A stretch of 53,154 nucleotides of DNA from Chitinophaga pinensis (GTDB lineage: Bacteria; Bacteroidota; Bacteroidia; UBA4408), in NCBI GenBank assembly GCA_945872355.1, contig CAMBZU010000014.1:1-53154 (forward strand). Direction: 5' to 3'. The notes under the pieces were generated by a model. The model was not told where the DNA came from. It did not search any database and was given only the letters and a program-made list of their open reading frames with translations. The translations under genes and the position numbers were made by a program. Below, one piece after another: positions 7,120 to 18,865 of this stretch; position 1 is the first letter of the stretch; every line of letters begins with the position of its first letter.

Positions 7120-7270
7120 ATATTTCTCATCGTTACTAATCAAGAGCAAGAAGCAGCACAACCACTTATTTATTAAGCACCCCCATTCAGCAAATAAATT
7201 CCGAATGCGTAATAGCTCATTTGCGATGATGTTATGGCTATTTAAATCTATGACAACAATCATAAAATTG

Positions 7271-7288
7271 TTATGATTTGAGTCATAA
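7271..7288 (+). promoter_or_regulatory. Crp/Fnr-type operator TTATGA-N6-TCATAA
   Basis: This is a perfect 18-base inverted repeat with spacer tttgag. Its centre (7279.5) is 36.5 bases upstream of the last G of the -7 box, i.e. about -41 to -44 from the expected transcription start, which is the class II activator position of Crp/Fnr proteins. No -33 TTTG is present, as expected for an activator-dependent promoter. The same palindrome lies at 16334-16351. Confidence 0.75.
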
Positions 7289-7308: not shown

Positions 7309-7316
7309 TAGGTTTG
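7309..7316 (+). promoter_or_regulatory. nos operon -7 element (TAGGTTTG)
   Basis: Exact match to TAnnTTTG. Transcription is expected to start near 7320-7323, about 10 bases before the ATG at 7333. Confidence 0.7.
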
Positions 7317-7332
7317 TGTTAAAATTATATCT

Positions 7333-7815
7333 ATGAAAAAACTAGCATTATTATCAGCAGCATTAATTTCGACACTTATTATAAGCTGCGGTGGCGAAAC
7401 AAAAACACAAGAAGAAACTATACAATCACCAATAGCAACCGGACAAGAAAGCAATGCACCCGTTTATGACCCTAAAAGAGGGGAAGGGAAATTTGATGAA
7501 AGCAATGTCAAAATAGGCCCTTTAAACGAAGCTATGGCAGCAAAAGGTGTGGCTATTGCCGGCACCAAATGCACTTCTTGTCATAAATTAACTGATGAAA
7601 AATTAGTTGGGCCAGGATGGAAAGGTGTTACTACTAGGAAAACTCCGCATTGGATTATGAACTTCATTACCAATCCAGACCCTATGATTGACAAAGATCC
7701 AGAAGTTCAAGCACAATTAGAATTGTGTTTAGTGCGCATGCCAAATCAAAGTTTAGCAGATGAAGATGCACGACAAATACTAGAATTTATGCGTAAAAAC
7801 GATAGTTCAAAATAA
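7333..7815 (+). CDS. c-type cytochrome lipoprotein of the nos operon
   Basis: The 160-residue protein has a lipoprotein signal (MKKLALLSAALISTLIISCG) with lipobox cysteine, one haem-binding CTSCH motif (C80, C83, H84) and a likely axial methionine at M136 (RMPNQ) before the final helix. It is probably anchored in the periplasm and passes electrons to NosZ, which lies 12 bases downstream. Cytochromes c are typical partners in clade II nos clusters. It is the first gene of the operon and carries the regulated promoter. Confidence 0.88.
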   Translation: MKKLALLSAALISTLIISCGGETKTQEETIQSPIATGQESNAPVYDPKRGEGKFDESNVKIGPLNEAMAAKGVAIAGTKCTSCHKLTDEKLVGPGWKGVTTRKTPHWIMNFITNPDPMIDKDPEVQAQLELCLVRMPNQSLADEDARQILEFMRKNDSSK

Positions 7816-7827
7816 AAATAATTAATC

Positions 7828-9804
7828 ATGAAAATCTCAAAAAACTCTATTCTAGCAACTTTTGCACTTGCATCATTGCTACTTGCTTGTAAACCCAAAA
7901 ATACAAGTAATGCTGTAAGCGGCGATGCTGCTGCAAAAGCTTATGTAGCCCCAGGTAAATATGACGAATTTTACAATTTTGTTTCAGGTGGCTTTAGTGG
8001 CCAAATGAGTGTTTACGGTTTGCCCAGTGGTCGTTTATTTAGGTACATTCCTGTTTTTTCTGTTGATCCTGAAAAAGGATGGGGATACAATGAAGAAACT
8101 AAGCCTATGTTAAACACCTCACATGGTTTTGTGCCTTGGGACGATTTGCATCATATTGAACTATCTCAAACAAAAGGTGAGCAAAATGGCAAATGGGCCT
8201 TTGCAAATGCAAATAATACACCTCGGTTAGCACGTATCGATTTAAAAACTTTTCGTACAGCAGAAATTATAGAATTACCAAACAGCGGTGGTAATCACAG
8301 CTCGCCATTTGGCACCGAAAACTCTGAATATATTGTTGCTGGCACAAGATTTAGTGTTCCCGGCGACAATGATAACGGAGATGTTCCAATAAACTCCTAC
8401 AAACAAAACTTTAAAGGGCATATCAGTTTTGTTAGCGTTGCTCCCGAAACAGGTGAAATGAAAATTGCATTTCAATTAAGAACACCAGGTGTAAACTTCG
8501 ATTTAGCGCGCGCAGGCAAAGGTAAATCGCATGGCTGGTTTTTCTTTTCATGCTACAATACCGAGCAAGCAAGTACCTTGCTAGAAGTTAATGCTTCGCA
8601 AAGAGACAAAGACTTTATTATGGCAGTAAATTGGAAAAAAGCGGAGGAATATATCAAAGCAGGGAAGGGTAAAAAAACACCTGTTAAATATGCACATAAT
8701 GTATATAATGAAAGCACGCAATCAGCCACATCTAAAATTGAGAAAGAAGTTTTGGTATTAGACATTGCTGAATTTAAAGATATCTGTTATTTTATTCCTT
8801 GCCCTAAATCTCCTCATGGTTGCGATGTTGATCCTACAGGTGAATATATTGTTGGAAGCGGTAAATTAGCTGCACTTATTCCTGTATTCAGTTATGATAA
8901 AATACAAAAAGCGATAGCCAACAAAACTTATGAAGGAGATTACGAAGGTATTCCGGTAATTAAATATGAAGCTGCATTGTATGGCGAAGTTAAAAAACCA
9001 GGCTTAGGCCCACTGCACACAGAGTTTGATGCCAATGGAAATGCTTACACTTCTTTCTTTGTTTCATCAGAAATTGTAAAATGGAATATCAAAGATTTAA
9101 AAGTGTTAGACAGGGCGCCAACTTATTATTCTGTAGGTCACCTTTGCATACCAGGTGGCAACACAGTAAAGCCTTGGGGTAAATATTTAATTGCTTATAA
9201 TAAAATTACTAAAGACAGGTATTTACCTACTGGTCCAGAGCTTACACAGAGTGCACAGATTTTTGATATCAGCGGCGATAAAATGCAAATGATACTCGAC
9301 TTCCCTACCATTGGTGAACCGCATTATGCACAGGCAGCACCTGCAGAATTAATTAGAAACAATGGGCAACTAAAAATTTATAAAATTGCCGAAAATAAAC
9401 ATCCATATAAAACCAATGGCGAAGGTGAGGCCAGGGTTGTACGCGAAGGCAAAAAAGTTCATGTGTATATGACTTCTATTCGTTCTCACTTTGCACCTGA
9501 TAATATTGAAGGTATTAAAATGGGTGATGAGGTATATTTCCATGTTACAAATCTTGAACAAGATTGGGATGTGCCACACGGATTTGCAATTAAAGGCGCT
9601 AACAATGCTGAGTTATTAATTATGCCGGGCGAAACATGTACCTTAAAATGGACACCAGATCGTACAGGTATTTTTCCAATGTACTGTACTGATTTTTGCA
9701 GTGCATTGCATCAAGAAATGCAAGGATATGTGCGCGTGTCCCCTGCAGGAAGTAATGTTCCATTGAGCTTTAGTTTAAACAAACCTGTTGCCGAAAACAA
9801 ATAA
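7828..9804 (+). CDS. nosZ: nitrous-oxide reductase NosZ (clade II-like)
   Basis: Reduces N2O to N2 in the periplasm. The CuA site is complete in the C-terminal cupredoxin domain: H584 (DVPHGF) and C620, C624, H628, M631 in CTDFCSALHQEM. The seven CuZ histidines are found in DDLHHIE (108, 109), GGNHSSPF, SPHGCDV, GPLHTEF, VGHLCIPGG and GEPHYAQ, spread over the seven-bladed propeller. The N-terminus (ILATFALASLLLAC) is a Sec signal with a lipobox and has no twin-arginine motif. That fits clade II enzymes and suggests a lipid anchor. Length 658 is normal. It lies between the cytochrome c and the NosL fusion gene, with a hairpin terminator just downstream. Confidence 0.97.
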   Translation: MKISKNSILATFALASLLLACKPKNTSNAVSGDAAAKAYVAPGKYDEFYNFVSGGFSGQMSVYGLPSGRLFRYIPVFSVDPEKGWGYNEETKPMLNTSHGFVPWDDLHHIELSQTKGEQNGKWAFANANNTPRLARIDLKTFRTAEIIELPNSGGNHSSPFGTENSEYIVAGTRFSVPGDNDNGDVPINSYKQNFKGHISFVSVAPETGEMKIAFQLRTPGVNFDLARAGKGKSHGWFFFSCYNTEQASTLLEVNASQRDKDFIMAVNWKKAEEYIKAGKGKKTPVKYAHNVYNESTQSATSKIEKEVLVLDIAEFKDICYFIPCPKSPHGCDVDPTGEYIVGSGKLAALIPVFSYDKIQKAIANKTYEGDYEGIPVIKYEAALYGEVKKPGLGPLHTEFDANGNAYTSFFVSSEIVKWNIKDLKVLDRAPTYYSVGHLCIPGGNTVKPWGKYLIAYNKITKDRYLPTGPELTQSAQIFDISGDKMQMILDFPTIGEPHYAQAAPAELIRNNGQLKIYKIAENKHPYKTNGEGEARVVREGKKVHVYMTSIRSHFAPDNIEGIKMGDEVYFHVTNLEQDWDVPHGFAIKGANNAELLIMPGETCTLKWTPDRTGIFPMYCTDFCSALHQEMQGYVRVSPAGSNVPLSFSLNKPVAENK

Positions 9805-9822
9805 TCATTAAGATAATTATTG

Positions 9823-9863
9823 AAAGGAGCAGCAAGGTATTACTACCAACTGCTCCTTTTTTT
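9823..9863 (+). terminator. intrinsic terminator/attenuator between nosZ and the nosL fusion gene
   Basis: A 10-bp perfect stem, AAAGGAGCAG (9823-9832) with CTGCTCCTTT (9850-9859), has a small inner stem GGTA/TACC in its loop and a T run reaching 9863. No new promoter is visible before 9882, so it probably lets only part of the transcription through, giving more nosZ than assembly-gene message. Confidence 0.75.
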
Positions 9864-9881
9864 ACCTCCTAAATAAAAATA

Positions 9882-10898
9882 ATGATAACAAGTATTTCAA
9901 TTAAATCGAAGGTTTTACTTGTACTTAGTACAATTGCATTAGTTACTTCAATATTTGTTCCGCTGTGGCGTATTGAGCTGGATGCACCGCAATATCCAGA
10001 GGGTTTAATGATGCAAATTCATGCCAATAAACTAGGTGGCCAAGTGGATATTATTAATGGTTTAAATCATTATATTGGAATGCAAACATTGCATGCCGAA
10101 AACTTTATTGAATTCACTATTTTACCCTATATCATCGCTTGTTTTGCATTGCTATTTTTAATAACAGCATTTGTTGCACGCAAAAAACTATTGTATTTTT
10201 CGTTTTGGGCTTTTGTTAGTTTTGGAGTAATGGCAATGATCGATTTTTGGCGCTGGGAATATAATTATGGCCACAACCTCGACCCCAGTGCTGCTATTAT
10301 TGTGCCGGGCATGTCATATCAACCTCCGCTCATTGGCTTTAAACAATTACTAAACTTTGGCGCCTATTCTATTCCCGATATTGGAGGATGGCTTTTTGTT
10401 ATTGCAGGTTTACTTATACTTATTGCTGTAATATTTGAAACCGATTTATTTAAACAACTTTCCACAAAAAATAATACAACAATTAAAGTGGGTATTTTAA
10501 TGCTGTGTTTTTCACTTGCTTCATGTAATAATTCATCATCACAGCCAATCAAATTAAATGTTGACAAGTGTGATTACTGTGCTATGACAATTGCCGATGT
10601 TAGATTTGGCGCAGAGTTAATAACACAAAAAGGCAGATGCTATAAGTTTGATGATCTTGCATGCTTGCTCAATTACAAAAAAGAAAAAACAAAGCTTGAA
10701 TTCAAAAAGTTCTATTTAAATACCTACATCGCAAACCATCAATTGATAGATGCAAGCAAGGCTTTTTTTGTGCAAAATGAAAATTTTAGAAGCCCAATGG
10801 GCGGTAACTTTGCAGCTTTTTTAAATCAAGATAAAGCCATTGCTTTTGCAAAAAAACAACATGCTTTGGTGCAAACTTGGAATGAAATTACTGAATAA
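9882..10898 (+). CDS. nosL: membrane protein fused to a NosL copper-chaperone domain
   Basis: Residues 1 to about 190 form a membrane part with about four helices and a periplasmic loop (PLWRIELDAPQYPEGLMMQI), like the small membrane proteins in Bacteroidota nos clusters. Residues 216-338 are a NosL domain with the Cys/Met copper-binding motif C230-D-Y-C233-A-M235 and FRSPMGG. NosL delivers Cu(I) to NosZ. The join contains a full lipobox-like sequence (GILMLCFSLASC, C215), as though a separate NosL lipoprotein had lost its own start and become fused. Translation from an internal GTG just before this stretch cannot be ruled out. It follows nosZ after a hairpin and precedes nosD by 3 bases. Confidence 0.85.
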   Translation: MITSISIKSKVLLVLSTIALVTSIFVPLWRIELDAPQYPEGLMMQIHANKLGGQVDIINGLNHYIGMQTLHAENFIEFTILPYIIACFALLFLITAFVARKKLLYFSFWAFVSFGVMAMIDFWRWEYNYGHNLDPSAAIIVPGMSYQPPLIGFKQLLNFGAYSIPDIGGWLFVIAGLLILIAVIFETDLFKQLSTKNNTTIKVGILMLCFSLASCNNSSSQPIKLNVDKCDYCAMTIADVRFGAELITQKGRCYKFDDLACLLNYKKEKTKLEFKKFYLNTYIANHQLIDASKAFFVQNENFRSPMGGNFAAFLNQDKAIAFAKKQHALVQTWNEITE

Positions 10899-10901
10899 TT
10901 A

Positions 10902-12140
10902 ATGATGAGAAATTATTATCTAATATTCATTACAATACTTATTGGGTGCAGCATACAGGCCAAAACAATTTATGTTGGTAAATCAGGCAATTATACACGC
11001 ATAAAATCGGCATTACAAAATGTAAACAATGGCGATACTGTAATTGTATCAAAAGGATTATACAAAGAAGGCAATATTATTATCAATAAATCTATCTGCT
11101 TTTTAGGCAAAGATTTTCCTGTTATAGATGGAGATAAAAAGTATGAAGTGCTTTCCATTAAAGCAAGTCATGTAGTTATAAAGGGGTTTAAAATTCAACA
11201 TTCTAGTTACGCTTCACTCGATGACCCGGGAGGAATAAAAATATATGAAAGCCGCAATGTTACCATTGAAGAAAACTTGTTGAGTGATAATTTTTTTGGC
11301 ATCTATTTACAGTATTGTTCAGCATGTATTATAAAAAACAACAGGGTAATTTCATCAGGTAAACAGGAGCAAGAAATTGGCAATGGCATTCACTGCTGGA
11401 AATGCGATAGCATACAAGTTATCGGGAATAAAATAGCTGGGAATAGAGATGGTATTTATTTTGAATTTGTTACCAACTCGCTTATATGGCGTAATATATC
11501 GTTCGATAATATCAGGTATGGATTGCACTTTATGTTCTCTAATTACGATGCCTATTTTACAAATTGCTTCACAAACAATGGCGCTGGTGTTGCTGTCATG
11601 TTTTCAAATCATATCACCATGATGAATAATACTTTTCGTGAAAATTGGGGCGATGCAGCCTTTGGCATGTTGCTAAAAGAAATTTCAGATTGCTACATGG
11701 CAGGCAATCAATTTAGGAATAATACTTCTGCCATATTTATGGACGGAACAAATAGAATTATAATAGAGAAAAATATTTTTGCCGACAATGGTTGGGGTAT
11801 GAAAATTCAAGCCAACTGTATGGATAATGTGATTAAACATAATAATTTTATGGGTAATACTTTTGATGTAAGCACAAATGGCACACTCACACTAAATGAA
11901 TTTAGAGAAAACTATTGGGACAAATATGAAGGTTATGATTTAGATAAAAATAAGGTTGGTGATATCCCCTATCATCCATTAAGTTTATATGCAGTAATTG
12001 TTGAAGGAAATCCACCTGCAATGCTACTTTACAGAAGTTTTATGGTGAGCCTACTCGATAAATCAGAAAAAGTTTTACCTAGTTTAACTCCCGATAATTT
12101 TATTGATAAACAACCATTGATGCAAGCAATAAAATTATGA
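10902..12140 (+). CDS. nosD: NosD periplasmic copper-site maturation protein
   Basis: The 412-residue protein has a signal peptide (MMRNYYLIFITILIGCSIQA) and a right-handed parallel beta-helix (NosD/CASH) repeat domain. The repeats show as ESRNVTIEENLLSDNFFGIY, SNHITMMNNTFRENWGDA and NRIIIEKNIFADNGWG. NosD works with the NosFY transporter to assemble the CuZ centre of NosZ. The stop overlaps the nosF start by 4 bases (ATGA), so the two are translationally coupled. Confidence 0.93.
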   Translation: MMRNYYLIFITILIGCSIQAKTIYVGKSGNYTRIKSALQNVNNGDTVIVSKGLYKEGNIIINKSICFLGKDFPVIDGDKKYEVLSIKASHVVIKGFKIQHSSYASLDDPGGIKIYESRNVTIEENLLSDNFFGIYLQYCSACIIKNNRVISSGKQEQEIGNGIHCWKCDSIQVIGNKIAGNRDGIYFEFVTNSLIWRNISFDNIRYGLHFMFSNYDAYFTNCFTNNGAGVAVMFSNHITMMNNTFRENWGDAAFGMLLKEISDCYMAGNQFRNNTSAIFMDGTNRIIIEKNIFADNGWGMKIQANCMDNVIKHNNFMGNTFDVSTNGTLTLNEFRENYWDKYEGYDLDKNKVGDIPYHPLSLYAVIVEGNPPAMLLYRSFMVSLLDKSEKVLPSLTPDNFIDKQPLMQAIKL

Positions 12141-12847
12141 TTGAAATAAAAAATATAGCTAAAAAATTCGGAAAACTTAATGTACTAAATGATATTAATT
12201 TACATTTAGCAAAGGGCGAAAGTATTGCCCTTATTGGACCTAATGGCTGTGGTAAAACAACTTTAATCAAGTGTATTTTAGGCATGGTTTTACCAAATAA
12301 AGGAGAAATATTTTTTCAGCAAAAATCAATTTTTAAAGATATTGCTTACAGAAGTAAAATTGGCTACATGCCTCAAATTGGAAGGTATCCAGAAAACATG
12401 AGCATTGGACAAATCATTAAAATGGTAAAAACCATTCGCAACTCAAATGAAACTTTAGACATCGATTTGTACGAGCAATTTGAAATTGAAAAACTGCTTA
12501 ATAAAAACATGAATACGCTCAGTGGCGGTACAACCCAAAAAGTGAGTGCAACTTTGGCCTTTTTATTTAACCCCAATGTATTAATACTTGATGAACCAAC
12601 TGCCGGATTAGATCCTTTAGCGGCAGAGCTATTAAAGGAAAAAATAATTAAAGAACGCAGTAAAGGAAAATTAATTTTAATTACATCGCATTTATTAAGT
12701 GAGTTAGATGATATGGTTAGTGAAATAATATTTATGCAAGAAGGTGCACTTGTTTTTCACAAAAGTGTTGTTGCATTAAAACAAGAAACGCAGGTTGAAA
12801 AAATATCTCAGGCCATTATTCATATCTTAAAGCATAAAACGGTATGA
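12137..12847 (+). CDS. nosF: NosF ABC transporter ATPase
   Basis: The 236-residue cytoplasmic ATPase has Walker A GPNGCGKT (34-41), the signature LSGGTTQK, Walker B LILDEPTAGLD and the switch ITSHL. It powers the NosDFY complex needed for NosZ copper-sulfur cluster maturation. The gene overlaps both nosD and nosY by 4 bases, as usual for this complex. Confidence 0.94.
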   Translation: MIEIKNIAKKFGKLNVLNDINLHLAKGESIALIGPNGCGKTTLIKCILGMVLPNKGEIFFQQKSIFKDIAYRSKIGYMPQIGRYPENMSIGQIIKMVKTIRNSNETLDIDLYEQFEIEKLLNKNMNTLSGGTTQKVSATLAFLFNPNVLILDEPTAGLDPLAAELLKEKIIKERSKGKLILITSHLLSELDDMVSEIIFMQEGALVFHKSVVALKQETQVEKISQAIIHILKHKTV

Positions 12848-13611
12848 ACAGAATTTTAAAATATGTAATACTTGATATCATAAAAAACAAAATTGTAATT
12901 TTTTACACCATACTTATTGCATTGTTTTCATGGAGTTCATTTAGCTTAGAAGACAATGCTGCCAAAGGTTTGCTCACCTTGCTGAACATCATCTTATTAA
13001 CAGTTCCTCTTGTTTCAATTTTATTTTCAACAATCTATATTTATAATAGCAGTGAGTTTATTGAATTGCTAGTAAGCCAACCTATCAAAAGAAGTAAAAT
13101 TTGGTATAGCTTATTTGCAGGTCTTGCTATCAGTTTATCTTTTGCATTTATACTTGGCGCAGGAATTCCAATCATTGTATTTGCAGATTTTTCAAAAGCC
13201 TTCATCATGATTGTGGTTGGCATTTTCATTACCATAATTTTTGTAGCATTGGCTTTTTTAAGCTCCATTTTAAGCCGCGATAAAGCCAAAGGAATTGGCG
13301 CTTCTATTTTATTGTGGCTATACTTTGCATTGCTTTTTGATGGCTTAGTTTTGTTTTTGTTATTTCAATTGAGTGATTACCCAATCGAAAAAATGATGGT
13401 TATTATTACTGCATTAAGTCCAATTGATTTAGCTAGAATATTAATGCTACTTCAATTAGATGTTTCAGCCATGCTGGGCTATACAGGTGCTATTTTTAAA
13501 GATTTTTTTGGCACTCAATTTGGATTACTACTTTCCTTTTTGCTGCTCCTGTTGTGGATAATTATTCCATTTTTTATCTCACTTAAAAAATTTAAAAATA
13601 AAGACTTATGA
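12844..13611 (+). CDS. nosY: NosY ABC transporter permease
   Basis: The 255-residue protein has about six membrane helices and an ABC-2 type layout, for example IVIFYTILIALFSWSSF, LLTLLNIILLTVPLVSILF and GLLLSFLLLLLWIIIPFF. It forms the membrane part of NosDFY. It overlaps nosF at its start and the next gene at its end, both by ATGA. Confidence 0.93.
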   Translation: MNRILKYVILDIIKNKIVIFYTILIALFSWSSFSLEDNAAKGLLTLLNIILLTVPLVSILFSTIYIYNSSEFIELLVSQPIKRSKIWYSLFAGLAISLSFAFILGAGIPIIVFADFSKAFIMIVVGIFITIIFVALAFLSSILSRDKAKGIGASILLWLYFALLFDGLVLFLLFQLSDYPIEKMMVIITALSPIDLARILMLLQLDVSAMLGYTGAIFKDFFGTQFGLLLSFLLLLLWIIIPFFISLKKFKNKDL

Positions 13612-14292: not shown

Positions 14293-15681
14293 ATGTTAGA
14301 TACAAAACAAAAAACACTTTGCGAACCATTTAAAATTAAAATGGTTGAACCACTCAAAATTACAACCGAGTCTTTTAGAGAAGCAGCTTTAAAAAAAGCA
14401 GGCTACAACCCTTTTCTATTATCATCTAATGATGTGTTTATTGATTTACTAACCGATAGTGGCACAGGCGCTATGAGCGATAATCAATGGGCAGCTATAA
14501 TGACAGGTGATGAAAGTTATGCTGGTGCCAGAAGTTGGCAAGCTTTAGAAAAAGTAGTAAAAAAATTAACCGGCATGCCCTATATATTGCCAACACACCA
14601 AGGCAGAGCAGCAGAAAGAATACTTTATGGTATTTTAGGTGGTAAAGGAAAAGTTTTTATTAGCAATACACATTTTGATACAACGCGCGCTAATATAGAA
14701 TTTACAGGTGCTACAGCAATTGATGTAATGCCTAATGAGGCAAAAGAGTTAGAAGTATATTTGCCCTTTAAGGGAAATATTGATCTCGATAAAACAGAAC
14801 AATTGATTCAAAAACATGGCCAAGAAAACATCGCAGCCATTATTATTACTGTTACCAATAACTCCTCTGGCGGGCAACCTGTAAGCATGGCTAATGTAAA
14901 AGCATTAAGAGCCATTTGCAATAAATACAATTTGCTTTTAATAATTGATGGCTGCCGAATAGCTGAAAATAGTTACTTCATCAAACACAGAGAAATTGAA
15001 TACATAAACAAAAGTTATTATGAAATAGCACAAGAAATGCTTTCTCTTGGTGATGCATTTATCATGAGTGCTAAAAAAGATGGATTGGTAAACATTGGCG
15101 GACTGCTTACTTTAAGGGATGAAGCACTAAGTGTTAATTGTAAAAATTTATTAATCATCTCAGAGGGTTTTACTACGTACGGAGGTATGGCTGGTAGAGA
15201 TATGGCTGCACTAGCAGTTGGACTTGAAGAAGTTTTTGATGAAGATTATTTACATTACAGAATCAAAAGCACAACTTATTTAGGAGAAAAATTAAAAGAA
15301 AAAGGAGTGCCTGTTGTTTGGCCTATTGGGGGTCATGCAGTATATATTGATGCTAAAAAATTATACCCTAATATTCCAGTAAATGAATACCCTGGCCAAG
15401 CTTTAGTATGTGATTTATATGTTAAAGGAGGCGTAAGATGTGTAGAGGTAGGTAGTGTAATGTTTGGTAAGTATGATAAAAATGAAAAATTAATTCCCGC
15501 GCAAAATGAATTAGTGCGTCTCGCAATTCCCAGAAGGGTTTATACACAAAGCCATATTGATTATGTATTGGAGGTGTTTGACGAAATTCTAGAAATAAGA
15601 AATCAAAAACATGGTTATAAAATTACCTATGAATCAAAATTTTTAAGGCATTTTACGGCCTTATTTGAAAAGTTGATATAA
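14293..15681 (+). CDS. tnaA: tryptophanase (tryptophan indole-lyase)
   Basis: A PLP-dependent beta-eliminating lyase of 462 residues that splits tryptophan to indole, pyruvate and ammonia. The PLP lysine is the second of SAKKDG (K262), and the aromatic and phosphate motifs LPTHQGRAAE and DGCRIAENSYFIK are present. Two positions separate it from tyrosine phenol-lyase: H453 in LRHFTA (Phe in the phenol-lyase) and V386 in CVEVG (Arg in the phenol-lyase). Both favour tryptophanase. It is the last gene of the nos transcription unit, 6 bases after the globin, and ends at a bidirectional terminator. Its presence there is unusual. Confidence 0.9.
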   Translation: MLDTKQKTLCEPFKIKMVEPLKITTESFREAALKKAGYNPFLLSSNDVFIDLLTDSGTGAMSDNQWAAIMTGDESYAGARSWQALEKVVKKLTGMPYILPTHQGRAAERILYGILGGKGKVFISNTHFDTTRANIEFTGATAIDVMPNEAKELEVYLPFKGNIDLDKTEQLIQKHGQENIAAIIITVTNNSSGGQPVSMANVKALRAICNKYNLLLIIDGCRIAENSYFIKHREIEYINKSYYEIAQEMLSLGDAFIMSAKKDGLVNIGGLLTLRDEALSVNCKNLLIISEGFTTYGGMAGRDMAALAVGLEEVFDEDYLHYRIKSTTYLGEKLKEKGVPVVWPIGGHAVYIDAKKLYPNIPVNEYPGQALVCDLYVKGGVRCVEVGSVMFGKYDKNEKLIPAQNELVRLAIPRRVYTQSHIDYVLEVFDEILEIRNQKHGYKITYESKFLRHFTALFEKLI

Positions 15682-15733: not shown

Positions 15734-16285
15734 TTACTTAGGCAAAAGTACATCTCCTATAACATGAATAATGCCGTTTGAAGTTGGAATCGACGCAAGT
15801 ATTTCTGAACCGTTCACAAAAGTTTTACCTTCTTTTTTGGTAATTTTTACCTTTCCACCATAAACCATATCATATAGTTGCCCATCATTCATATACGCTG
15901 TTTTTAAACTACCCACATAGGTGTGATAACCTAAAATATTTGCTAAATCCTCTTTCTTTTCGGGCGCTAATAAACCTTCAACGGTTCCGGGAGGTAGTTT
16001 CTCAAAAGCTGCGTTTGTTGGTGCAAAAACAGTGAATGGTCCTGCATTGCTAAGTGCATCAACCAACTCTGCTGCTTTAACTGCTGTAACTAAAGTAGTG
16101 TGATCTTTGCTTCCAACCGCAACTTGCACAATATTTGGGCTTGATGTTTCATCAACAACGCCACTTTGTCCCGGACCAACTTCTGTGTTTGCTACCTCAG
16201 CACTTTCTGCATTTTGTGGGTTATTACTGCAAGATGAAAGGGCAATGCCCAATACTAAAGTAAATAAGAATGCTTTATTTTTCAT
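15734..16285 (-). CDS. fasciclin (FAS1) domain lipoprotein
   Basis: The start is set at the ATG giving MKNKAFLFTLVLGIALSSCS, a lipoprotein signal with lipobox cysteine; the longer frame would run into the promoter. One FAS1 domain of about 135 residues follows: TTLVTAVKAAELVDAL, GPFTVFAPTNAAFEKLPPGTVEGLL, ILGYHTYVG and NGIIHVIGDVLLPK. FAS1 lipoproteins are common beside denitrification genes in Bacteroidota, but their function is unknown. It is probably under the same Crp/Fnr control as the nos operon. Confidence 0.88.
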   Translation of the reverse strand: MKNKAFLFTLVLGIALSSCSNNPQNAESAEVANTEVGPGQSGVVDETSSPNIVQVAVGSKDHTTLVTAVKAAELVDALSNAGPFTVFAPTNAAFEKLPPGTVEGLLAPEKKEDLANILGYHTYVGSLKTAYMNDGQLYDMVYGGKVKITKKEGKTFVNGSEILASIPTSNGIIHVIGDVLLPK

Positions 16286-16333: not shown

Positions 16334-16351
16334 TTATGATTAAAATCATAA
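16334..16351 (-). promoter_or_regulatory. Crp/Fnr-type operator TTATGA-N6-TCATAA, second copy
   Basis: A perfect palindrome; the arms extend to TTATGATT/AATCATAA. It shares all twelve arm bases and the exact promoter distance with the site at 7271-7288. Confidence 0.75.
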
Positions 16352-16354
16352 TAC

Positions 16355-17581
16355 TTAAAATTGATTTACTTTCCTTTGTTTTATCATTGAAATATTCAAT
16401 AAAATAAGGCCTGAAAGCATTATCAATGCGAGTAAAAATAATATTTCATTGGCAAAAGGAACCATGGTATAACTTATCGAGAAAATTCCCTGAACGCCTA
16501 AAATGATTTCATTCAAAAAAATTCCTATTACAAAAATAATAAGGCCCAATTGCGCCATTTTTGTTTCAACTATTAATTTATTCATGTACGCATAAACAAT
16601 TAAAAAAACAGTTGTAAATGCTAATAATACCAAATGCAAGTATGCAATTACAATTGGTCTAAATCCGAAAGCAAATTTACTTATTGCTGGAATAGTAGAA
16701 CCTGCTTGTAGCGATACTTTGCATGCAAGTGCTGTACCTACAAAAATCAATAAGATTTTAGATATTAAATGTAAATTAAATTTTTCCCAGCACCTTGATG
16801 CTGCAATTGATTTAAAAAAAATAAATAGGCCCAATAATTGACCTAAAGCAGCAATAACAACAAAAATATAAATCCATAATGGTAGGTTCAACCAAAGTAC
16901 TGATAAGCCATAGGCAGGAATACACGACAAGGCAAACAATTTAAAGGTGAAAGGCTCCTTTATTAATTCAATATTTTTTGAGTATAAAAAATTTACAAAT
17001 AAGCCTGCACAGGCAAAGAAAAACCAACCATTGTACTGAAAGTGCAAATACCAATATACTGAAGCTAAATAAGCATGTTGCTCTAATTGTCTTGTTGCCA
17101 TCATATAACTTAAACACAAGGTGCCAATGGAAGATAATAGATTAAAAAACAAGGCCAAATTCATCCACTTAATTCCTGGTAAATTAAAAGATGATCTTGC
17201 CGTAATATAAAATTGATAACTAAACCAAAATGAAATGATGATTGAAAGCGACGAAAAAGCAATCGAAAAGAAACCATATCCATGCATTGCAAAGGATACA
17301 AGCATGCCATAAGCAGTTATTAAATTTGCATATAATATTGGTTTCATATGCCATAATTGCGCTTTTGATAATTTTTCTTTAACACTATATAGCATCAGCA
17401 CCATAATCATCATCGATATCCAGCCACCAAAAGCAAAATGTGAATGCGCATGCTGTAAATTCTTTTGATTAAGATAAGGAAACGCAAAGCCAATTTTATA
17501 GCGCATCACAACACCCAAAAAAGCAACTATAAGCAAATTAATTAAAGTTAAACGAATCCAAAATTTGAAATTAAAATTCAT
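16355..17581 (-). CDS. 12-TM membrane protein, haem-copper oxidase subunit I-like
   Basis: The 408-residue protein is nearly all membrane helices; I count 12, as in haem-copper oxidase/NO-reductase large subunits. Histidines sit near the ends of helices: H44, H46 and H48 in HAHSHFAFGGW, one in AMHGYGF, one in YLHFQYNGWFF and one in AYLHLVLLAF. The paired histidines that hold CuB or FeB in true oxidases are not seen. It may therefore be a haem-binding relative rather than an active reductase. It is the third gene of the Rrf2/Crp operon, 1 base after the regulator gene. Known families near denitrification genes (NnrS, NorB-like) are alternatives. Confidence 0.6.
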   Translation of the reverse strand: MNFNFKFWIRLTLINLLIVAFLGVVMRYKIGFAFPYLNQKNLQHAHSHFAFGGWISMMIMVLMLYSVKEKLSKAQLWHMKPILYANLITAYGMLVSFAMHGYGFFSIAFSSLSIIISFWFSYQFYITARSSFNLPGIKWMNLALFFNLLSSIGTLCLSYMMATRQLEQHAYLASVYWYLHFQYNGWFFFACAGLFVNFLYSKNIELIKEPFTFKLFALSCIPAYGLSVLWLNLPLWIYIFVVIAALGQLLGLFIFFKSIAASRCWEKFNLHLISKILLIFVGTALACKVSLQAGSTIPAISKFAFGFRPIVIAYLHLVLLAFTTVFLIVYAYMNKLIVETKMAQLGLIIFVIGIFLNEIILGVQGIFSISYTMVPFANEILFLLALIMLSGLILLNISMIKQRKVNQF

Positions 17582-17582
17582 C

Positions 17583-18176
17583 TTAATAGATTAATTTTCT
17601 TTCAATTATATTCACTATATTTTTAACTTTCATTTTGGCCAATGTTCTAATTACTGTCTCCACTCTAAGTCCCGTAAAATTTGCTATTTCTTGCCTTGTA
17701 AATGGAATCTCCATTGGCTTACTAGTGGCATCCAACTTTTTCTTAAACGTATTTAGAAAACATAAAATTCGCGTCTCGGGATTGTTATTTATTACTTCTC
17801 TGGCAGTGCATGCTTTATTGTACAGCCTGCGTGCAAATACATTAATTAAATCAAGTTGCAAGGCAGGATAATCATTTAATATTTCGAAATACTTTTCTTT
17901 ATTAATTTTCATAACTACCGAGTCTTCAGTAGCAACAGCGGCGCATGGATATGTTTCTGCTATAAATAAAGGCGATTCTCCAAAGCTACAACCTTCCTTA
18001 AACTCAGCCTGTGTAAACTCTTTGCCATCTACATTTGTATTAAACATTTTAATTGTACCTTTTATAACTTGAAAATAATTGTTAGGAACATCACCTTCAA
18101 AAAAAATATATTCACCCTTTTTATATTTTTTATTTATTGCTCCCCAAGCTACTAATACATTAATTTCTATTGGCAT
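17583..18176 (-). CDS. Crp/Fnr family transcriptional regulator
   Basis: The 197-residue protein has a cyclic-nucleotide-type beta-barrel (KKGEYIFFEGDVPNNYFQVIKGTIKMF, GCSFGESPLFIAETYPCAAVA), a long dimer helix and a C-terminal winged helix-turn-helix. The recognition helix reads GLRVETVIRTL; V172, E173 and R177 align with the Fnr/Crp contact residues, and I176 replaces the Fnr serine. The N-terminal cysteines of oxygen-sensing Fnr are absent, so it is more like the NO-responsive Dnr group. It is the likely binder of the palindromes at 7271 and 16334. It lies 6 bases after the Rrf2 gene. Confidence 0.9.
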   Translation of the reverse strand: MPIEINVLVAWGAINKKYKKGEYIFFEGDVPNNYFQVIKGTIKMFNTNVDGKEFTQAEFKEGCSFGESPLFIAETYPCAAVATEDSVVMKINKEKYFEILNDYPALQLDLINVFARRLYNKACTAREVINNNPETRILCFLNTFKKKLDATSKPMEIPFTRQEIANFTGLRVETVIRTLAKMKVKNIVNIIERKLIY

Positions 18177-18182
18177 GATATG

Positions 18183-18614
18183 TTATTTTAATATCTGTTT
18201 AAATAAATTATCTGCCTTTCCTAAATCTAAAACATTTTTTTTTAAAAGTAATTTTTCAATTATTTCCCTCGATTTTTTAAACTCTTTATGAAAGGCACAT
18301 GGCTTTTTTTCTGAGCATTTACTAAAACCCATGGCACATTGATTGAATACGAATTTGCCATCAATAGCCTCCACAATTTTTATTACTGGAATTTGTAGTT
18401 GCTTACCTTCAATGTAAAAGCCACCATTAGGACCTTTCAAACTGCTAATTATTCCATGCTTAACTAACAATTGCAATACTTTACCAAGTGTGTGGTCATT
18501 TTCTACTACTACTATTGATAGCTCTTTCGCTGAATATTTTGCTTCAATATTATTTTCAGATGCTAAAAATGCTATTGACTTTAATGCGGCTTGACAAGTT
18601 TTTGTAAAAATCAT
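18183..18614 (-). CDS. Rrf2 family regulator with three-cysteine Fe-S motif (NsrR/IscR-like)
   Basis: The 143-residue protein has an N-terminal winged helix (TCQAALKSIAFLAS, YSAKELSIVV, HTLGKVLQLLVKHGIISSLKG, GPNGGFYI) and the cluster-binding pattern C93-x6-C100-x5-C106 in NQCAMGFSKCSEKKPCAF. Rrf2 proteins with these cysteines carry a [2Fe-2S] or [4Fe-4S] cluster and sense NO or Fe-S status. It is the first gene of a three-gene operon and has a palindrome over its own promoter, suggesting self-repression. The -7 box ends 4 bases before the ATG, so the transcript would be leaderless. Confidence 0.9.
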   Translation of the reverse strand: MIFTKTCQAALKSIAFLASENNIEAKYSAKELSIVVVENDHTLGKVLQLLVKHGIISSLKGPNGGFYIEGKQLQIPVIKIVEAIDGKFVFNQCAMGFSKCSEKKPCAFHKEFKKSREIIEKLLLKKNVLDLGKADNLFKQILK

Positions 18615-18618
18615 ATGG

Positions 18619-18626
18619 CAAATATA
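18619..18626 (-). promoter_or_regulatory. Rrf2 operon -7 element (TATATTTG)
   Basis: Exact TAnnTTTG on the minus strand. Transcription is expected to begin at 18612-18615, on the start codon itself. Confidence 0.65.
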
Positions 18627-18628
18627 TT

Positions 18629-18648
18629 AAAAGTATTTAAATACTTTT
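18629..18648. promoter_or_regulatory. perfect 20-bp palindrome, probable Rrf2 operator
   Basis: AAAAGTATTTAAATACTTTT occupies the spacer directly upstream of the -7 box. Bound protein would block RNA polymerase. The AT-rich arms of about 10 bases resemble NsrR/Rrf2 operators in size and layout. Confidence 0.65.
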
Positions 18649-18865
18649 ATACTTTTATAAGAATAATTTCAACCATTAACAAATTTCAAAAACAACATAT
18701 GAAAATTGTTTATGGTTTAAGTACCTAATTAATTTGCCAGTTTAACCATTCTAACTATCGATTGATCTTTAAACCCAGCTTGCATTAGGAATAGTTTATC
18801 AAAAAAAAATTACAATAATATCATTGCTCACAGACTATTTTTGTTGTAATACCGATGTGAAATTA

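Follow-up and report, generated by a model that had tools for sequence, protein, structure and literature searches.

Introduction

The closest described relatives of the regulator studied here are NsrR, known from Escherichia coli, Streptomyces coelicolor and Neisseria, and IscR. NsrR combines the Rrf2 fold with a three-cysteine cluster motif, palindromic operators over promoters and a small regulon. Its operator consensus is gATGyAT-(N5)-ATrCATc (PMC1274295), and Asp8 is a cluster ligand in the S. coelicolor protein (PMC5411485). In the bacteria where they have been studied, RIC genes are induced by NO and repressed by NsrR (PMC9268430). IscR has three cysteines, with a histidine two residues past the last one in the E. 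coli sequence, and shows negative autoregulation.

Bacteroidota are a major group of consumers of the greenhouse gas N2O, and to our knowledge little has been established about how they regulate clade II nosZ. A gene-cluster survey recorded genes of the Rrf2 and Crp/Fnr families close to nosZ but gave neither a site nor a mechanism (PMC6264515). Two-tier nos control is known from Crp/Fnr cascades (PMC6710368, PMC5398030), and regulators of the DNR, NnrR, NssR and HcpR types are Crp/Fnr proteins beside nos genes, with FNR-like dyad boxes at nos promoters.

Here we analyze a 53,154-nt stretch of a Chitinophaga pinensis genome assembly (contig CAMBZU010000014.1; 'the window') that carries an rrf2-crp-oxL operon and a nos cluster (Table 1). 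Our best explanation, which we consider probable, is a Bacteroidota-specific, NsrR-like Rrf2 protein that represses its own operon, is released by NO and so drives crp-oxL and likely nos and fas. A literature search on Rrf2 with DUF2249, hemerythrin or YtfE in Bacteroidota did not find this regulon described; papers beyond the search could exist.

The operon and its genes

The first-pass annotation described an Rrf2 protein with C93, C100 and C106, an operon that also encodes a Crp/Fnr regulator and an oxidase-like protein, and a perfect 20-bp palindrome in the promoter spacer of that operon. The cysteines are exactly there in the 143-aa ORF, the three genes share a strand and are separated by 6 and 1 nt, and the palindrome is perfect and slightly longer, at 22 bp.

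Table 1. Positions of genes and candidate regulatory elements in the window
Feature	Position	Strand	Description
nos box, upstream	7250..7263	+	Second candidate Crp/Fnr box ATGACAACAATCAT, nos promoter
nos box	7273..7286	+	Candidate Crp/Fnr box ATGATTTGAGTCAT, nos promoter; -7 element TAGGTTTG at 7309-7316, about 29 nt from box centre
nos cluster	7333..13611	+	Cytochrome c, Sec-type (clade II) nosZ, nosL, nosD, nosF, nosY; presumed tier-two target
fas	15734..16285	-	Fasciclin-domain lipoprotein, PF02469 102.5 bits; final gene of conserved Crp-OxL-Fas set
fas box	16336..16349	-	Candidate Crp/Fnr box ATGATTTTAATCAT, centre 57 nt before ATG; -7-like GACCTTTG at 16313-16306
oxL	16355..17581	-	12-TM protein of heme-copper-oxidase fold; three invariant His only (H46, H180, H316)
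crp	17583..18176	-	Crp/Fnr-family regulator, 197 aa, helix RQEIANFTGLRVETVIRTL, no N-terminal Cys cluster
rrf2	18183..18614	-	Rrf2-family regulator, 143 aa, C93-X6-C100-X5-C106-X2-H109, HTH with KGPNGGF wing
rrf2 -7 element	18626-18619	-	Predicted promoter element TATATTTG (TAnnTTTG, Bacteroidota type), 1 nt from operator, 4 nt before ATG
Operator	18628..18649	.	Perfect 22-bp palindrome TAAAAGTATTTAAATACTTTTA, predicted operator (sequence and comparison with relatives)
Third half-site	18650..18657	.	TAAAAGTAT direct repeat in 8-nt register; possible accessory site

The rrf2 product scores 63.8 bits against PF02082 in a profile search (cut-off 30) and belongs to the Rrf2 family. It also has C7 and H109, and in an alignment of its orthologues C93, C100, C106 and H109 are invariant (44/44). 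Its AlphaFold2 model (pLDDT 89.4) matches Rrf2-family structures at Z 11–15; DNA-bound [4Fe-4S]-NsrR (7b0c, Z 15.2) comes top, tied with CymR (Z 15.0), and IscR scores Z 12.8. From this ligand set we predict with good confidence that C93, C100, C106 and H109 hold an Fe-S cluster. A scan of viral contigs for Rrf2 found no relatives.

Neither NsrR nor IscR is an acceptable identity for this protein. The curated models score it far below their cut-offs (NsrR equivalog NF008240 of NCBIfam, 21.9 bits against 182; IscR TIGR02010, 42 bits against 207.55), and the operators differ. The window operator reads AAGTAT-(N4)-ATACTT, is conserved in relatives and does not fit the NsrR consensus. The protein has Gln8 in place of the Asp8 of S. 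coelicolor NsrR, plus His109. With NsrR it shares the fold, the three-cysteine motif, a palindrome over the promoter and, through its orthologues, RIC/ytfE as a presumed target in a small regulon; unlike NsrR it would control a Crp/Fnr gene. With IscR it shares the cysteines, the histidine spacing and probable negative autoregulation, but its subfamily has no isc/suf linkage at the loci examined. By this comparison it appears NsrR-like in function and a separate Rrf2 subfamily by membership.

The crp product is a Crp/Fnr protein by PF00027 (cNMP_binding, 71.2 bits) and PF13545 (HTH_Crp_2, 34.1 bits); no cysteine precedes residue 63, so it lacks an FNR-type N-terminal cluster. For OxL, sequence searches of Pfam and the PDB gave no match, and the fold search identified the fold: its AlphaFold2 model (pLDDT 89.8) matches cbb3 oxidase (3mk7, Z 35.6) and NO reductase (NOR, 4xyd, Z 34.1). 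A catalytic heme-copper oxidase subunit has six histidines. OxL keeps three invariant ones across 25 homologues and so may be a heme protein that is no canonical oxidase. OxL and a second type, OxL2 (L144:3357-4649), represent two membrane-protein groups that are linked to nos and RIC operons and match no Pfam family above cut-off. OxL-type genes also lie beside or near other Rrf2 genes at five loci, a wider Bacteroidota association.

Between oxL and fas there are 69 nt, with a promoter-like stretch of fas's own. Across Bacteroidota, Crp-OxL(-Fas) is conserved without Rrf2 as a set of genes linked to nos. In the nos cluster, profile matches reach 928 bits (TIGR04246) and 417 bits (TIGR04247); nosF (ATPase) and nosY (permease) were read from sequence and synteny. 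A tryptophanase gene (14293-15681) adjoins the cluster, and this neighborhood recurs at five other loci.

The predicted operator in the window and in relatives

Since the -7 element begins 1 nt after the palindrome, describing it as filling the promoter spacer is fair, even though we identified no good -33 TTTG for the rrf2 promoter. The rrf2 mRNA is predicted to be near-leaderless, with a start at about 18614-18616, which counts against our best explanation. Across the 3.4 Mb genome the 18-bp core of the palindrome has a single exact occurrence; the best other copies have two mismatches and are all inside genes. Half-sites similar to the third one in Table 1 occur at two other loci. Between rrf2 and a release-factor-like gene there is also an imperfect inverted repeat (18668-18720; 21-nt arms at 86%, 11-nt loop), perhaps a terminator or another regulator's site.

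The closest relatives of the window Rrf2 (about 42–52% identity) are mostly encoded by the final gene of a conserved operon: DUF2249 and RIC (YtfE/ScdA type), a DUF1858/DUF2249 protein, a second oxidase-like membrane protein, a DUF59/SufT-like gene and rrf2. The RIC of these operons scores 228.7 bits against TIGR03652 (cut-off 204.7). Cultured species such as Flavihumibacter petaseus and Ginsengibacter hankyongi have a RIC-rrf2 operon. We scanned 61 complete upstream regions of such operons from named Bacteroidota genomes, with 1098 scans of permuted palindromes of the same composition as a control. The window palindrome TAAAAGTATTnnAATACTTTTA precedes 57 of the 61 at 17 or more of 20 positions, a match level reached by one control scan in 1098.

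Seven of the 395 genomes searched from the class hold the exact 20-mer, each a single time (reversed control, 0). An Rrf2 orthologue is present in 33 of the 395, including all seven. RIC/DUF2249 operons follow five of the seven sites; the other two, in the window and in genome G047, stand immediately before rrf2. The G047 rrf2 (L110:3404-3880, contig C13) has decayed and contains an in-frame stop, yet its operator still matches at 20/20, which marks it as a relic of this switch. Four distant Bacteroidota Rrf2 genes have other upstream dyads, TAAAGGATAnnnTnTCCTTTA, possibly the operator of a sister subfamily.

Promoter elements differ in placement. In RIC operons the -7 element TAnnTTTG starts 13–16 nt past the site, which places the operator over the -33 region. 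The distance is 1 nt in the window and at locus L154, where the operator takes up the spacer. Both positions would suit a blocking repressor. The comparative evidence that this Rrf2 subfamily uses the palindrome as its operator is strong. We therefore expect with near certainty that the window Rrf2 binds it, and the position of the site makes repression very likely.

Own genome and history of the linkage

The window Rrf2 is the only one detected in its genome. We found no DUF2249 gene there and no full-length RIC, only a shorter, sub-cut-off RIC-like gene that lacks the palindrome operator. With the RIC/DUF2249 operon gone, a sole Rrf2 and one good operator at its own promoter, Rrf2 would mainly control the Crp/Fnr and oxidase-like genes. 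A COX1-family search of the genome returned two genes only (ORFs of 607 and 713 aa). The 713-aa ORF adjoins ccoS and was read as cbb3. We saw no gene of the qNor type and hence no evident NO source or need within the cell.

Rrf2 directly precedes Crp in the window and at three other loci. At L154 (genome G381) Rrf2-Crp is followed by Fas and a DUF2249/RIC gene; at L170 a RIC operon continues into Rrf2-Crp-OxL; and at L208 the order is site-RIC-Rrf2-Crp-OxL, divergent from a nos-type cytochrome gene. In the trees, the window Rrf2 groups within the RIC-operon clade, and L154 is its sister (96/90). L170 grouped with the window in one tree, and a second tree gave no resolution (AU p 0.38, not rejected). 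Since L208 is placed elsewhere, the Rrf2-Crp linkage may have arisen more than once, a weakly supported reading.

Candidate Crp/Fnr boxes

ATGATnnnnATCAT boxes lie in both the nos and the fas promoters, at a spacing that fits an activator. The box centre mostly precedes a recognizable -7 element by 28–30 nt, as for a class II activator. The dyad TGA-N6-TCA occurs in 17 of 20 cytochrome-c/nos promoters of relatives, compared with 7.6% of shuffles, and an FNR-type box precedes fas in 8 of 12 relatives (8.9% shuffled). Regular-expression scans of the nos promoters for TTGA-N6-TCAA-type and TGA-N8-TCA patterns gave almost nothing, and TGA-N6-TCA is the right spacing. The system thus resembles DNR, NnrR, NssR and HcpR in its Crp/Fnr protein beside nos genes and its dyad boxes, and differs from them in the box itself and in a crp gene that lies under an Rrf2 operator. 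Five relatives without Rrf2 have an FNR-type box of crp's own, TATGATnnnnATCATA. Upstream of the window rrf2 there is no such box and the Rrf2 operator stands in its place; beside the Rrf2 operator at four other loci, the stretches read hold no full ATGAY-N4-RTCAT box.

The genome encodes a second Crp/Fnr protein (C7:35662-36201) with an FNR-like N-terminal cysteine set, beside a RIC-like gene. A ATGATnnnnATCAT box lies between these FNR-like and RIC-like hemerythrin genes (C7:34996-36201), and nearby are a Usp gene and a gene resembling the start of a heavy-metal ATPase. Similar boxes are also found before ccoS-ccoNO (cbb3), hemA, cytochrome c peroxidase, Usp and other genes, a pattern that resembles an anaerobic FNR regulon. 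Two adjacent ATGAY-N4-RTCAT boxes (C22:6282-6317) precede a 384-aa homogentisate dioxygenase-like gene, with no Pfam match on the 70 residues tested. With this second regulator and similar boxes elsewhere in the genome, sites alone cannot tell which protein binds at nos and fas.

Discussion

In the mechanism we propose, an Rrf2 dimer on TAAAAGTATTTAAATACTTTTA would cover the core promoter and block rrf2-crp-oxL. Damage to the Fe-S cluster, most likely by NO, would release the operator, and the freed operon would yield the Crp/Fnr protein, the oxidase-like membrane protein and additional Rrf2, which would close a negative feedback loop. Crp/Fnr would then most likely join in activating the nos and fasciclin promoters through the ATGATnnnnATCAT boxes. 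This would be two-tier control of denitrification genes, as in FixK2-NnrR of Bradyrhizobium and FnrL-Dnr of Dinoroseobacter, but with an Rrf2 repressor as the upper tier instead of a FixK/Fnr activator. The arrangement suggests that control was rewired. Relatives would use this Rrf2 and operator for the RIC/DUF2249 Fe-S repair operon, and their crp has its own Crp box; in the window the RIC operon would have been lost and the Rrf2 operator would have replaced crp's own control.

The self-control claimed in the first-pass annotation is strongly supported by the conservation of the operator with orthologues across Bacteroidota. An origin of the palindrome as a chance AT-rich inverted repeat or a terminator has a negligible probability: the region is AT-rich and holds other imperfect inverted repeats, but the palindrome has no GC stem, is conserved with orthologues and is nearly absent elsewhere in the 395 genomes. 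That near-absence and the permuted-palindrome control rule out the chance repeat. Activation or dual regulation by Rrf2 at this promoter is improbable. IscR-type proteins can activate, and in RIC operons the palindrome centre would be near -36, where some activators bind; the window site, however, is between -33 and -7 and abuts the -7 element, a blocking position.

The earlier link to Fe-S damage by NO gains support from the orthologues in RIC/YtfE operons, and from the RIC and nos linkage we judge NO to be the probable main signal. The first-pass annotation mentioned neither RIC nor the occurrence of this operator before RIC operons of relatives. The self-repressor could instead read Fe-S or iron status or oxidants, like IscR or RirA, with the operon answering a general cluster shortage. 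We think this rather unlikely. H109 has the IscR ligand spacing, IscR, SUF-regulator and RirA models outscore the NsrR model on this protein, and orthologue operons include the DUF59/SufT-like Fe-S assembly gene. Against that, the operon core is RIC, whose response to NO and NsrR was noted above; orthologous rrf2 loci adjoin nos genes at five loci; and the loci read showed no isc/suf operon. Because the window's own genome lacks the RIC operon, which is what suggests NO, the signal may have drifted there.

Of the claimed Crp activation of nos and fasciclin genes, the FNR-type boxes stand, at both promoters and at a conserved distance to -7; the identity of the protein that binds them is less firm, because the FNR-like paralogue may do so. 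The boxes make action of the window Crp there somewhat the likelier outcome. It is quite possible, if less likely, that the paralogue is the second tier, that the nos, fas and ccoNO boxes are oxygen-read FNR sites, and that Crp acts elsewhere or on oxL only. The boxes before ccoS-ccoNO, hemA, cytochrome c peroxidase, Usp and the RIC-like gene beside the paralogue favor this, as does an E-T-x-I-R recognition motif common to both proteins. It is countered by the recurrence of the boxes at nos and fas in many relatives beside the same Crp, and at crp's own promoter in the five relatives without Rrf2.

Taking the NO-released Rrf2 and its Crp/Fnr partner together, we tentatively suggest that, with the RIC operon lost and Rrf2 and its operator commanding crp, NO would induce N2O reduction by an Rrf2-to-Crp relay in a non-denitrifying N2O consumer. 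The NO would be made by neighbors, because no NO reductase of its own was seen. The analysis provides a precise operator, a regulon defined across the phylum and a testable two-step circuit, which could explain when non-denitrifiers turn on N2O reduction.
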